55,288 nt of DNA, taken from an uncultured Prevotellaceae bacterium. GTDB taxonomy: Bacteria > Bacteroidota > Bacteroidia > Bacteroidales > Muribaculaceae. Of this stretch, positions 19,191 through 23,497 are shown in pieces. A program made the position numbers and the translations under genes. Below the pieces are notes generated by a model. It ran no database searches. It saw only the letters and a list, made by a program, of their open reading frames with translations, and was not told the DNA's origin. Numbering within the stretch: the stretch's first letter is position 1; each line of letters opens with the position of its first letter. Location of the stretch: assembly GCA_900318645.1 (NCBI GenBank), contig ONLH01000021.1:1-55288 (forward strand). Direction: 5' to 3'.

Positions 19191-19221
19191 CTATTATCTA
19201 ATATCTAAAGTCTAAAACCTA
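19191..19221 (-). repeat. Heptamer array with TAG every 7 nt, spanning a stop codon
   Basis: Gene-strand TAG triplets begin at 19221, 19214 (the real stop), 19207, 19200 and 19193, each 7 nt apart. The first lies out of frame inside the last codons. The array ends just before the terminator at 19160-19179. Confidence 0.8.
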
Positions 19222-21467
19222 AACGTCACATACCCCAGCGCGTTAATCCCCGCCATGGGATAGAAGCGCGGGTCGCTATAGAGCGAGTAAGCATTCTCCT
19301 TGCTGCCGCCGGAATACAGGGCGCAGGTCTGGGAGTAGCCGTTGGTCTCATACTTCACGTTGAACAGGTTATAGACGGTAGCGCCGACGGTGATGCTGCG
19401 GATTTTCGGCAACTTGAAGGTATAAGCCAGATCCAGGTTGTTGACAAAGTAGGGATCCAGCGAGTCTTCCTTGCGCTCGAAGTTGTCGAGGTACTGGCGC
19501 GACACATACTGCGACTGCAGGTTGGCGGTGAAGCCCTTGTACTCAAACATCAGCATGCTGCCCACGGTCAAGCTGGGCGAGAAAGCGATGGTGGTATTGC
19601 CCTTCTCGATGGCGGTCTGCGTCCACATGTCGTCCCACGTGTCAGCGTCATAGTCGCTCACGTAGCCCACATAGTCCTGGATGCGATTGCGGCTCAGCGT
19701 GGCGTTCACCTCCCAGCGCAGCCAGTCGGTGAAGTGCATACCTGCCAGCAGTTCGATACCCATGCGGTAGCTCTTGTCCACGTTCTCGGCCATCAGCTCG
19801 CCGATCTCATTGATCTTGCCGTTGAGCACGAGCTGGTCCTTGTAGTTCATGTAGTACAGGTTGGCACTGAACAGGTAACGGCCCGTACGGAACTCATAAC
19901 CAGCCTCCCAGTCATAGAGTTTCTCGCTCGTGGGATGCTGCAGGAACAGGCCGTCGGTATAGTTGTTGCGCGTGGGCTCCTTCTGGGCAACGGCAAACGA
20001 GGCATAGGCACGGTGCTTGGGGGCAATCTGCCAGTTCAGACCGGCCTTGGGATTGAAGAAATTGAACGGCTCGTCGATATTGAGGGCCTGCAGGCGCTCG
20101 GGGTCAGCGGTCCAGTCCCACTTGTCGTTGTTGCCCGTGATGCGGTAGCCGATGTGGCGGTACTGCAGGTCGGCATAGGCGCTCAAGCCACCGGTAATCA
20201 CATAGTTGCCCTTGATATAGATGTTGAAGTCGGTTTTGCGGCCGTTGTTGCGGTAGTACTCGTGGTCGGGAGCCAGCGGGCTGGTGTAGTTCTCCACCCA
20301 GATGACCTGCCCGTAGTGGTCGTTGCTGTAGCGGTTGATGCCGCCGCCCAGCGTGGCTGCCAGGCGCTCGCCGGTGTACTGCAGCGAGAAGACACCGCCA
20401 CCGAAGTTGCTATCCACACATTTCTTCCTCACCAGGCTCGCCTTCTTGCTGGTACCCTCGGCAGTCACCACGGGCAGCAGACCGTACTCCTTGAGCGTAC
20501 GGGCATTCTTATACTCCTGGTAGTAGCCGTAGCCGTTGGTGTAGTGCAACGCCACGTTGAGTTTCCACAGGGGATTGAAGGTCTGGTTCCAGATCAGCTG
20601 GTAGTGGGTCTGGCGGTAGATGTCCTTCTGGTCCTTATAGAAGCCCGTCACCTTGCCGTCGTGCTTGATCTCGCCGTTGGGGTTATAGGTACGGCGCTCC
20701 TTCAGGTCGTCGCGGCTGATACCGTCCCAGGCGTGATAGGTATCTTCCTTGCCGCCAAAGGTGATAAAGCGCAACGAGGTCCCGCTGTTGAAATAACCCA
20801 CCTGACCGAAGTAGCTGAGCAGCTCGCTGCTCGCGCGGTCACGGTAGCCGTCGCTGCCGATGTGCGACAGGCGAGCCTCGATGGACCAGTGGTCGCCCAG
20901 CAGACCCGTTCCCAAGCGCAGGGTCTCCTTGTTGGTATTGTACGAGCCATAGCTGCCCGACACCTCGGCATAGGGATCGCGCGAGAAACCTTGGGTCCTC
21001 ATGTTCACGCTGCCACCGAAGGCGCCCGAGCCGTTGGTCGAGGTGCCAGCACCACGCTGCACCTGGATGTCGCGCACCGACGACGCAAAGTCCGGCGTGT
21101 TCACCCAATAGATGCTGTGGCTCTCGGCATCATTCAGCGGGATATCATTCACGGTGATGTTGATGCGCGTGGCGTCAGTGCCACGCACGCGCATCGACGT
21201 GTAGCCCACGCCAGCACCCGCATCGCTGGTGGTGATCACGCTCGGAGTCATCGTCAGCAGGAACGGAATGTCCAGGCCATGGTTCTCGGCAGCCAGTTGC
21301 TTGCCAGTCAGATTAGTAAACGCTACAGGAGTGCTAGCACTAGCACGAGTTCCCAGCACCTCCACCTCGCTCAGCGCGATAGAGGGCACCGTGTCGGTCG
21401 CGGCAGTCTGTGCCACCGCAGCCAGGCCTGCCACTACCATGGCAGCCGTCAAAAAGATCTTCTTCAT
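19212..21467 (-). CDS. TonB-dependent receptor, probable thiamin (or precursor) transporter
   Basis: A 751-residue outer-membrane receptor. Signal peptide MKKIFLTAAMVVAGLAAVAQ, then a TonB-box-like SEVEVLGTRA. The plug domain covers about 45-150 (MRVRGTDATRINITVNDIPLNDAESHSIYWVN, QRGAGTSTNGSGAFGGSVNM). The barrel ends in GYVTFRF. There is no carboxypeptidase-like or STN domain and no SusD partner, so it belongs to the classic cofactor/siderophore receptor class. The TPP riboswitch at 21600-21522 upstream gives the substrate hint: riboswitch-controlled TonB receptors for thiamin are known in Bacteroides. No pnuT or thiamin-pyrophosphokinase gene is nearby, so it works as a single-gene unit. 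Confidence 0.9.
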   Translation of the reverse strand: MKKIFLTAAMVVAGLAAVAQTAATDTVPSIALSEVEVLGTRASASTPVAFTNLTGKQLAAENHGLDIPFLLTMTPSVITTSDAGAGVGYTSMRVRGTDATRINITVNDIPLNDAESHSIYWVNTPDFASSVRDIQVQRGAGTSTNGSGAFGGSVNMRTQGFSRDPYAEVSGSYGSYNTNKETLRLGTGLLGDHWSIEARLSHIGSDGYRDRASSELLSYFGQVGYFNSGTSLRFITFGGKEDTYHAWDGISRDDLKERRTYNPNGEIKHDGKVTGFYKDQKDIYRQTHYQLIWNQTFNPLWKLNVALHYTNGYGYYQEYKNARTLKEYGLLPVVTAEGTSKKASLVRKKCVDSNFGGGVFSLQYTGERLAATLGGGINRYSNDHYGQVIWVENYTSPLAPDHEYYRNNGRKTDFNIYIKGNYVITGGLSAYADLQYRHIGYRITGNNDKWDWTADPERLQALNIDEPFNFFNPKAGLNWQIAPKHRAYASFAVAQKEPTRNNYTDGLFLQHPTSEKLYDWEAGYEFRTGRYLFSANLYYMNYKDQLVLNGKINEIGELMAENVDKSYRMGIELLAGMHFTDWLRWEVNATLSRNRIQDYVGYVSDYDADTWDDMWTQTAIEKGNTTIAFSPSLTVGSMLMFEYKGFTANLQSQYVSRQYLDNFERKEDSLDPYFVNNLDLAYTFKLPKIRSITVGATVYNLFNVKYETNGYSQTCALYSGGSKENAYSLYSDPRFYPMAGINALGYVTFRF

Positions 21468-21521
21468 GCAATAATTCGTTTTCTCAAGTCCCGCAACCCC
21501 GTTGCGAAACTTGAATCAATA

Positions 21522-21600
21522 AATGTTCTCTACGCCGGCATTATCCGGATCAGATCCCATGGGTATGTTCTCAGCCCCCATCTCCCAGGAAGCACCCCAA
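21522..21600 (-). promoter_or_regulatory. TPP riboswitch (THI element)
   Basis: Read on the minus strand: GGGGTGCTTCC, then GGGGGCTGAGAACATACCC, then GATCTGATCCGGATAATGCC and GGCGTAGAGAA. These are the CUGAGA and ACC...CUGAUCNGGNUAAUNCCGGCGNAG cores of the thiamin-pyrophosphate aptamer. A -7-like TAATTTTG lies about 20 nt before it (21627-21620), and the receptor start is 55 nt after it. Binding of TPP should lower expression of the receptor. Whether control is by termination or by hiding the start region cannot be seen. Confidence 0.93.
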
Positions 21601-21699
21601 ACTCATTGAATCACGCCACAAAATTACTACTTTTTCCACAATCCCCCACCACAATCCCCCACAATTCTCACCCCACTCCCCAATAAATCCCCCCCGCAC

Positions 21700-21983
21700 C
21701 ACGACCGTCCCGTCCCCGTATTGCGCGTTACCAACGCGCACCACACATCACCCCCCTCGCCACGACCGTCCCGTCCCCGTATTGCGCGTTATCAACGCGC
21801 ACCCCACTTCCGCCCCCCTGCCACGACCGTCCCGTCCCGTATTGCGCGTTATCAACGCGCACCCCACATCCGCCCCCCACCGCGACCGTGCCGTCCCGTA
21901 TTGCGCGTTATCAACGCGCACCACACATCCGCCCCCCGTCACGACCGTGCCGTCCCGTATTGCGCGTTATCAACGCGCACCCC
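21700..21983. repeat. Palindrome-centred direct repeat array 1 (5 units of 59-61 bp)
   Basis: Each unit has CGACCGTCCCGTCCCGTAT, then the palindrome TGCGCGTT-ATC-AACGCGCA (loop ACC in the first unit), then about 20 nt of C-rich sequence such as CCCCACATCCGCCCCCC. Palindromes sit at 21722-21740, 21783-21801, 21843-21861, 21902-21920 and 21961-21979; spacing is 61, 60, 59 and 59 nt. Stems are perfect in all copies. Varying spacing breaks any reading frame, so it is not coding. It ends about 40 nt before the promoter of the ATPase gene. Confidence 0.93.
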
Positions 21984-22020
21984 CAGCCTCCAGAAATCCC
22001 CCCTCCTCTGCTTTTTAACG

Positions 22021-22052
22021 TTGCATTTCCACAACCCCATCTTTTATCTTTG
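22021..22052 (+). promoter_or_regulatory. Predicted promoter of the repeat-flanked ATPase gene
   Basis: TTG (22021-22023), a 21 nt spacer and TATCTTTG (22045-22052) fit the Bacteroidetes -33/-7 pattern. Transcription should begin near 22058, about 24 nt before the ATG. The array upstream is therefore outside the transcript but close enough to act as an operator. Confidence 0.65.
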
Positions 22053-22081
22053 CTCATTATTAATAATTAAATTTGATTACC

Positions 22082-23314
22082 ATGCATTACAACAGAACAC
22101 CACTTATCGGTGACCGCGATCCCTGGTCATCGCTTTTCATCAACATCGACTCGCCATTGCAGCAATACCGTCCCAATCCCATCGTCACCATTTGCGGTTC
22201 GGTAGCACTCCACAGGCACGACATCACCTTCCTCACGGGAGCAAGCCACTGCAGAGCACATGCCGTCGCCAAGATGCTCGCAGCGGCAGTCTTGCAAGGC
22301 AGCTACCAGTATGTCCCCTCACTTCAGGTCGCCAAGCCTCAAGAAGAACAAGACAACCAGGAGCAGAACAACCGAGTCCTGTGGATTGACTCAGTACATT
22401 CTTTCTATACCTGCTGCAGCTTCATAGAAGACCTCAAGCAGCACTTCGGCGCTTCTAACGAAAACTTTCGGCTCATGTGCCTCGACGATCTCGGCACCTT
22501 CAACGAGTGCGACGAGGTGATTCTCTGCAATATCACCCAAGCAATCCGCGATTTCAAACCCACCCTCATCATCATCGATGACCTGGATCACCTCACCCCA
22601 GAATGTGGCGCCTATCGTGCCGACAACTTCTACCTCGAGATGAGGGAAATTCTCGATTTCTACAGCACTTCCCTCTTGTGCATCGGATACAACCTCATCG
22701 GCAGGGCCAAAAGCACTGCCGGGTTCATTGGCAAGCGCCTTTTCCCGATTGCCAACAACGTGTTCCGCATCACCAACCGAGGCACCACGTCCTTACTACA
22801 GCGCGTCAGAGCAATCACCGACGACGGTGAGTTCCAGTTCGCCTTCACCATCAATGACAAGAATTTCGCACAAGAAGTCCTCCTGAAACCCGAAAACTCA
22901 TCCGCAGCAGCACAGTATGCCGAGGCGACAACGGTCCAGGATGTCTTCAATGCCGTCATCACCGAGGACGAGGCAGTTTCTCCCGATCAGCTTGTCACAA
23001 GATTAAACAAGCGACAGACCGAATTGAATCGCCTAACCCGCAATCGTCTCCTCATCGCCGACGCCCTCGCGCGAGGTGTAATCATCAAGGACAACCAGGG
23101 CTACTACACCATCAATCCCAAGTCAAGCCCTAATAGCTTTTTGACGGAAGCCCACAACCGCCGCCTCATTGATGACTACATTGATAACCTCCGCAGCTAC
23201 AACAAGATACCAAATCTACTCCCCGACAAGAAACCAAACAATTTTTCATATTTTAACAAACGCGCACACACCACCACCTCATCCCACCCATCTAAAACTC
23301 AAGTCTCCCCATAA
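22082..23314 (+). CDS. RecA-like (AAA_25/RepA-like) ATPase with degenerate P-loop and C-terminal winged helix, flanked by repeat arrays
   Basis: A 410-residue protein with the layout of the RecA-like ATPases found on Bacteroidetes mobile elements. The P-loop position reads LTGASHCRAHAVAK (about 51-64), without the GK(S/T) needed for normal nucleotide binding. The next strand is RVLWIDSVHSFY, where relatives have an ID-TEQS-like motif. Walker B is intact (PTLIIIDDLDHL, about 160-171). Residues 290-350 look like a winged helix-turn-helix (SPDQLVTRLNKRQTELNRLTRNRLLIADALARGVIIKDNQGYYTI). The last 40 residues are low-complexity. Start 22082 is the first ATG after the promoter. Function is unknown; binding to the flanking palindromes is my inference. 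Confidence 0.75.
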   Translation: MHYNRTPLIGDRDPWSSLFINIDSPLQQYRPNPIVTICGSVALHRHDITFLTGASHCRAHAVAKMLAAAVLQGSYQYVPSLQVAKPQEEQDNQEQNNRVLWIDSVHSFYTCCSFIEDLKQHFGASNENFRLMCLDDLGTFNECDEVILCNITQAIRDFKPTLIIIDDLDHLTPECGAYRADNFYLEMREILDFYSTSLLCIGYNLIGRAKSTAGFIGKRLFPIANNVFRITNRGTTSLLQRVRAITDDGEFQFAFTINDKNFAQEVLLKPENSSAAAQYAEATTVQDVFNAVITEDEAVSPDQLVTRLNKRQTELNRLTRNRLLIADALARGVIIKDNQGYYTINPKSSPNSFLTEAHNRRLIDDYIDNLRSYNKIPNLLPDKKPNNFSYFNKRAHTTTSSHPSKTQVSP

Positions 23315-23334
23315 CACCCCCTCATCCCCCATCC

Positions 23335-23497
23335 ACGACCGTCCCGTCCCCGTATTGCGCGTTATCAACGCGCACCCCACATCCGCCCCCCGCTCGCGAC
23401 CGTGCCGTCCCGTATTGCGCGTTACCAACGCGCACCCCACATCCGCCCCCCGCTCGCGACCGTGCCGTCCCGTATTGCGCGTTATCAACGCGCACCC
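23335..23497. repeat. Palindrome-centred direct repeat array 2 (3 units of 60 bp)
   Basis: The same unit as array 1. Palindromes are at 23356-23374, 23416-23434 (loop ACC) and 23476-23494, 60 nt apart. The array starts about 20 nt after the ATPase stop codon. Units follow the same order of variants as in array 1: the first carries GACCGTCCCGTCCCC, the later ones GACCGTGCCGTCCC. Confidence 0.93.

Follow-up and report, generated by a model that had tools for sequence, protein, structure and literature searches.

What are eight copies of a palindrome doing on either side of a RecA-like gene with no match above cut-off in Pfam or NCBIfam? The window (the whole 55,288-nt stretch of DNA analysed here, from an uncultured Prevotellaceae bacterium) raised this question in a first-pass annotation, which likened the arrangement to iteron origins, partition sites or operator arrays and saw in it the best candidate in the window for a self-contained, undescribed system. 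Three observations guide our answer: the repeats form a class of REP hairpins, this class is linked to RAYT transposase genes, and it is linked to the family of the RecA-like gene. The kind of repeat is thus already known; its setting and the resident gene family are new.

Two arrays of co-oriented hairpins flank an orphan gene

The orphan gene lies on the plus strand and encodes 410 amino acids, with its frame open from the ATG at 22082 to the stop at 23314. Around it, the palindrome TGCGCGTTAYCAACGCGCA occurs in eight exact plus-strand copies, starting at 21722, 21783, 21843, 21902 and 21961 upstream and at 23356, 23416 and 23476 downstream; shuffled sequence predicts 0.01 matches with up to three mismatches allowed. 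Each copy is an exact hairpin of 8-3-8 bp, all eight share one orientation, and units within each array are spaced 59–61 bp apart, the palindromes covering 21722–21979 and 23356–23494. Palindrome search, spacing and a covariance model together delimit an upstream array at 21710–21981 (plus strand; hairpins at 21710–21742, 21771–21803, 21832–21863, 21891–21922 and 21950–21981), in which the tag GTCC(C)(C)GTAT precedes each 8-3-8 hairpin, and a downstream array at 23344–23496 (plus strand; hairpins at 23344–23376, 23405–23436 and 23465–23496). The reported count of five units before the gene, three after it and none elsewhere in the window was confirmed by exact search.

No further exact copy occurs in the window outside the two arrays or in the rest of the 3.6-Mb assembly (91% complete), and contig C34 of this assembly carries one copy with a single mismatch. 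The covariance model of the wider hairpin class, with 150 of 1,624 candidates in the assembly scored, returned the same eight hairpins as the sole matches in the window contig and at least 49 matches at E ≤ 1 in the assembly, these eight included.

A TPP riboswitch on the minus strand (21510–21609) adjoins the repeat unit and is the only Rfam match in the window at gathering scores; the gene downstream of it, at 19212–21467, presumably encodes a TonB-dependent receptor-like protein. A stretch very similar to this riboswitch region lies near a distant member of the gene family at locus L019.

The repeats belong to a genus-wide class of REP-like hairpins

Palindromes of 8-3-8 geometry (9-1-9 where the loop ends pair) are prominent at 31 homologue loci, one of which, L039, is the same contig stretch as another, L015. 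Their stems vary, the loop has 3 nt, and a tag, commonly GTCnnnGTA[T/G], stands directly 5′ of the 8-bp stem. Among 34 aligned hairpins, selected for pairing, stem covariation reached 0.675 compared with 0.215 in shuffles, and seven of the eight stem pairs show two-sided changes. The 99.6% pairing of the aligned stems and the invariant GT of the tag arise in part by construction, because the selection of rows allowed no more than one mismatch and demanded GT. The tag reads GTAT in 26 rows, GTAG in 6, and GTAA and GTGT in one each; the first stem pair is T-A in 31 of 34 and the second is mostly G-C.

At E ≤ 0.01 the covariance model finds the class in 68 of 150 related genomes, all of them in the genus of the window: 68 of 91 same-genus genomes versus 0 of 59 from other genera. 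The hairpin counts per genome are lower bounds, with at most 47 candidates scored in each. Copies are dispersed, and many intergenic regions of the genome carry them. We therefore assign the window repeats to a genus-wide REP-like class, not to iterons or partition sites, and, with the reservation that most tags read GTAT and not GTAG, consider them REPs in the sense set out in PMC3733652 and PMC6006769.

Some hairpins lie within or close to genes. At L036 (G034:C1), the gene contains an in-frame tandem array of REP hairpins inside its open frame; REP hairpins also fall in open frames at L019, L030 and L038, and some C termini are hairpin-encoded (...QATGL). In genomes without the gene, tagged hairpins in sense orientation were seen by eye just 5′ of start codons at L126, L128, L129 and L130, where they are possible 5′ UTR elements.

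The hairpins are linked to RAYT genes

In the same genome as the window (G000), inverted hairpin pairs on contig C40 bracket a 320-amino-acid protein with a DHLH motif, which matches Y1_Tnp just above the cut-off and the NCBI REP-associated tyrosine transposase model at 1.8e-9, below the cut-off of that model. Taking the best match to this RAYT in each of 30 genomes, we found a hairpin at E ≤ 0.01 flanking it in 23 of the 30 loci, with both orientations present in 18 of the 19 loci that have two or more full hairpin matches. The link extends to whole genomes: hairpins occur in 63 of 71 genus genomes with this RAYT type and in 5 of 20 without it. The stem in the window differs from those at the two RAYT loci of its own genome, C40 and C51, and one genome (G047) has at least 14 hairpin matches and no detected RAYT of this type. 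The hairpin model gave no match at E ≤ 0.01 at nine loci of shorter Y1 transposases (L067–L075), where a chance-like pattern match at L073 is the sole one, and no REP at this threshold at five loci of distant relatives (0/14 for this control as a whole).

RAYTs bind their REPs as single strands and in a strand-specific manner, according to the available portion of PMC8266576, which would fit hairpin copies in direct orientation.

A RecA-like family that has lost Walker A

The window protein has no match above cut-off in Pfam or NCBIfam, Rep and Par families included. Its Walker A motif is degenerate (TGASHCRAH) and its Walker B motif, IDDLDH, is retained. At E ≤ 0.1, AAA_25 matches 7 of 27 family members (best 4.1e-6) and AAA_22 matches 15 of 27 (best 1e-6); scores were compared with the model cut-offs for the window protein alone, which falls below them. 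A profile of the family retrieves AAA_25 proteins. Homologues occur in 30 of the 150 relatives, every one in the genus of the window; the profile search adds five, for a total of 35, through distant or partial matches, and one of the five belongs to another genus. Plasmid and phage records hold no homologue of the window protein. All 27 members fall on one side of a branch with 100/100 support, in a tree for which the program warns of long branches. Among the genomes searched, this places the gene family as one clade that is seen solely in this genus.

None of the 27 aligned members has kept Walker A, whereas 14 of 14 distant relatives keep its lysine together with a serine or threonine. At Walker B, 22 of the 27 members retain the aspartate and 5 have asparagine. 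Values of dN/dS lie at 0.09–0.20 in 10 of 12 pairs and at 0.34 and 0.48 in the other two, several pairs having saturated dS, and show the family to be under purifying selection. Together, the loss of Walker A and the low dN/dS describe a protein that is under selection and is probably not an active ATPase. The original description of a RecA-like ATPase that is no known Rep, ParA or transposase survives as regards the RecA-like character, with no Pfam or NCBIfam match above cut-off, and an active ATPase has become improbable.

The C-terminal winged helix proposed in the first-pass annotation is weakly indicated by a profile match to BlaI (1sd4) at E = 0.022, which ranks behind FtsY matches at 0.003, and the region is possibly of this type. 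A structure model built from three sequences was poor (pLDDT 45.6), and its Foldseek matches to KaiC, RAD51 and Twinkle, at TM about 0.25, do no more than agree with a RecA fold. The homologue at L035 contains proline/serine-rich repeats.

These properties bear on the idea that the protein uses the repeats as iterons, as a centromere or as an operator. Direct repeats of a dyad do adjoin the gene of a probable DNA-binding protein. But the protein has no plasmid or phage homologue and has lost Walker A, the repeats are dispersed in places where the gene is absent, and the stem changes between loci while the tag stays, unlike an operator that is read by its sequence. We regard this reading as very improbable; iteron origin, partition site and operator array have found no support. 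An iteron origin or partition site was also set aside on the basis of chromosome-like neighbours (judged by eye) and the lack of plasmid, phage, Rep or Par matches.

Gene and hairpins occur together and in one orientation

The covariance model places a REP at E ≤ 0.01 in 24 of 30 homologue loci, one of which, L023, has no more than a partial match; this figure is partly circular, because 17 of the 30 loci supplied training rows for the model. Of 16 further gene copies outside the training set, 13 have a REP at the same threshold. These copies were chosen from the profile search with most small fragments omitted. They include paralogues of training loci from the same genome, and part of their REP matches were already known from the scan of 150 genomes. 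As a control, loci of the gene downstream of the window gene, which we take to encode an aldo/keto reductase, contain a REP in 1 of 28 cases, and the positive one is itself a remnant, the gene-less derivative described below. At the level of genomes, 24 of 30 with the gene have at least 10 hairpin matches versus 10 of 61 without it. Because the genomes are related, these counts are not independent and tests on them are inflated.

The association has exceptions on both sides. Hairpins are present in 38 of 61 genus genomes without a detected homologue, and one genome (G025) has at least 33 hairpin matches yet only distant relatives of the gene; conversely, 6 of the 30 homologue loci and 3 of the 16 extra copies lack a REP. 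Repeat and gene are thus found together more often than chance would give, and the repeat is not peculiar to the gene. The proposed unit of repeat plus gene stands in so far as it recurs in other genomes, where a search for the repeat beside the gene mostly succeeds, and has to be given up as a pairing special to this gene: the repeat is widespread where the gene is lacking, and some homologues do without it.

All full-length REP matches at gene loci share the orientation of the gene. This includes 53 of 53 matches found when 20 kb around each of 20 gene copies was scanned (17 of these copies have REPs), a set that overlaps the earlier loci. Partial matches on the opposite strand are the same palindromes read backwards.

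Such uniformity would be expected if the REPs acted as RNA elements within the transcript of the gene, say in its stability or in translation control, since they would then have to lie in sense orientation. Also in keeping with this are the REPs at L022 between the promoter-like motif (described below) and the start codon, the REPs inside open frames elsewhere, and the hairpins seen by eye just upstream of start codons in some genomes without the gene. Several points, however, make RNA elements an improbable explanation. The five upstream units in the window precede the promoter-like motif, and REPs several kilobases from the gene are co-oriented too. Ten REPs all point one way on C35, which has no such gene, suggesting a possibly regional polarity. 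In Pseudomonas fluorescens SBW25, tandem REP arrays run forward in one half of the genome's two sides and in reverse in the other (PMC3116915); in our data GC skew gave no support for a replication polarity.

The stretch of contig C35 in question (G000, 15193–117325) has its ten REPs in about 100 kb on one strand, which neither gene direction nor GC skew explains. Replication polarity as the cause of co-orientation was rejected as unsupported by GC skew. Skew taken relative to the REP strand is positive in 9 of 18 loci (8 of 18 at third codon positions); relative to the gene, the figures are 6 of 21 and, at third codon positions, 11 of 21. Skews over 20 kb are noisy.

Unit ends and gene-less derivatives

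A promoter-like motif, CTTTTTAAC...TATCTTTG, forms the left part of the unit at 22011–22052 (plus strand) and was recognized by its recurrence upstream of family members. Searched for in up to 500 bp before the gene, it is present in 13 of 27 members (one case is doubtful), and it gave 2 matches in 108 kb of control loci. The motif resembles Bacteroidetes promoters and is a candidate for the promoter of its own that had been claimed for the gene.

At the other end, other family members carry a 3′-end motif, TTTTAACAnnYCCSCCCC, of which a degenerate version, matched by eye, is tentatively placed at 23250–23267 (plus strand) in the window. The motif is conserved as DNA although members read it in different frames. 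A strict pattern finds it at 7 of the 30 homologue loci and at 5 of the 16 further copies, and at 0 of 27 control and 0 of 30 RAYT loci. Of 92 genus genomes, 22 contain a 27-base form of the motif, and none contains the reversed control; the window's own genome has no match to the 27-base form.

Genome G054 contains 17 copies of the end motif, two with the gene or most of it and 15 with no trace of the gene within 1.7 kb upstream. Nine of these 15 gene-less copies carry one to three REPs (by pattern), the last 45–71 bp before the end motif, and eight have the promoter-like motif; L343 and L344 have neither. Many pairs are homologous beyond the motif (L341 and L345, for example, are 83% identical over 201 bp), and the derivatives end on the right about 26 to 200 bases past the motif start. 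At ten end-motif loci in seven other genomes, one of them at a contig start, the gene was upstream in none and a REP was present in two; such gene-free loci suggest that the motif may not be confined to the unit.

Comparison of loci adds possible signs of movement or exchange. The segment 21636–23593 of the window cannot be aligned to the orthologous site in G054, where the same two neighbours enclose another gene together with a gene-less derivative. The units of G087 and G021 share 95% identity over 1,334 bp, compared with 78–83% for the neighbouring sequence, to which the unit is inverted; for G021 and G024, identity is 91.5% in the unit and in the flank alike. No target duplication or excision product was found. 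These alignments show gene-less derivatives that are alike at different loci, and one unit that is more similar than its flanks. Copies on contigs C2 and C13 of G018, matching at 99.98% over 4.1 kb, were not counted as movement, because the match reaches the contig ends and may be an assembly duplicate.

All of this could still describe an ordinary multi-copy chromosomal gene, with REPs accumulating in permissive, fast-changing flanks and the derivatives being decayed copies. Flanks of the family do collect other repeats (a 218-bp tandem with hairpins of its own lies downstream of a homologue at L029, 2788–3461), the L035 protein has its proline/serine-rich repeats, and gene fragments sit at contig ends. 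REPs occupy many intergenic regions elsewhere, and L343 and L344 lack both REP and promoter-like motif. Yet the neighbour-gene control loci are nearly free of REPs, many derivatives share layout and sequence at different loci, as independent decay would not produce, and the 3′-end motif is conserved as DNA despite the differing frames. We hold this explanation to be doubtful, though it is the strongest of the competing ones.

A proposed REP-borne unit

The reading that we prefer, at a rough probability of 0.53, is that of a REP-borne, partly mobile unit, probably moved in trans by RAYTs, whose protein is a predicted DNA-binding pseudo-ATPase of RecA fold. The palindromes are REP-like hairpins, of the kind that RAYT transposases bind as single strands, placed around, and in some relatives inside, a genus-specific RecA-fold gene whose catalytic Walker A is lost. 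Promoter-like end, gene, REPs and 3′-end motif would together make up a unit that is moved or exchanged within the genus and may leave gene-less derivatives behind. We infer that RAYTs encoded elsewhere would work on these REPs in trans. The protein, a RecA-like factor that would bind DNA but not hydrolyse ATP, may attach to the hairpins or to the ends of the unit and either help or limit copying. A more speculative extension, which we doubt, is a two-part mobile system in which the dead RecA-fold protein marks or escorts REP-bearing units for copying by RAYTs encoded elsewhere. Equally tentatively, the escorted units would be the protein's own gene and the gene-less miniature copies.

Relation to known systems

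The closest parallel is with REPtrons (a REP with its RAYT, or TnpAREP), in which a short, tagged, dispersed and mostly extragenic hairpin flanks the gene of a Y1 HUH transposase. The present hairpins differ from REPtrons in a tag that usually reads GTAT instead of GTAG and follows a GTC at a distance of about three bases, and in that many copies bracket a non-transposase gene in direct, not inverted, orientation. GTAT is not among the tags in the accessible text of PMC3733652 and PMC6006769, which also describes REPs inside genes. REPINs share a non-autonomous dispersal that is proposed to depend on RAYTs, but are inverted doublets, to judge from the available part of PMC3116915. The present units are single or direct tandem hairpins, with all full-length matches at gene loci direct, and are bounded by a promoter-like sequence on the left and by TTAACA...CCCC on the right. 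The CGTC REPs are similar in their GTC motif upstream of an 8-bp stem and in an A/T first stem pair, which is T-A in 31 of 34 of ours, and are reported from Bacteroidetes among other phyla; they differ in a loop of 4–5 nt instead of 3, in an A/T second stem pair where ours is mostly G-C, and in lacking a transposase gene, where ours flank a RAYT (all from the portion of PMC3733652 available). A literature search that had most subscription journals outside its reach returned no work tying REPs or RAYTs to an ATPase partner and nothing on REPs in Prevotella.

The protein family, for its part, is homologous to the AAA_25 RecA-like ATPases of mobile elements and has the same order of motifs. These relatives have an intact Walker A and DG at Walker B in 14 of 14; the window family, set apart from them by the 100/100 branch, no longer has Walker A. 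A search with the family profile also retrieved AAA_25 copies that are paired with RAYT-like genes (E from 3e-17 to 4e-14). These observations speak to the spread of REPs and to a possible need of RAYTs for partner proteins. They suggest that REP-borne units can carry a non-transposase gene. They also offer a concrete candidate for a RAYT partner, because the RecA-like family travels with REPs and is under selection and because relatives are paired with a RAYT-like gene at 7 of 10 loci.

At these 7 of 10 subfamily loci read, a RAYT-like gene of 381 amino acids is followed directly by an AAA_25-type ATPase gene of 360–362 amino acids with intact Walker A (L167, L169, L217, L218, L219, L221 and L222, in G054, G043, G035, G087, G025, G034 and G086, respectively). 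The seven paired ATPases form one subclade (96/100), and L220, L223 and L224 have no RAYT-like gene. At six of the seven paired loci the neighbours resemble type I restriction genes by eye, and two of them, an N6_Mtase and a Methylase_S, were confirmed with Pfam; we would guess at an accessory or defence role for the pair.
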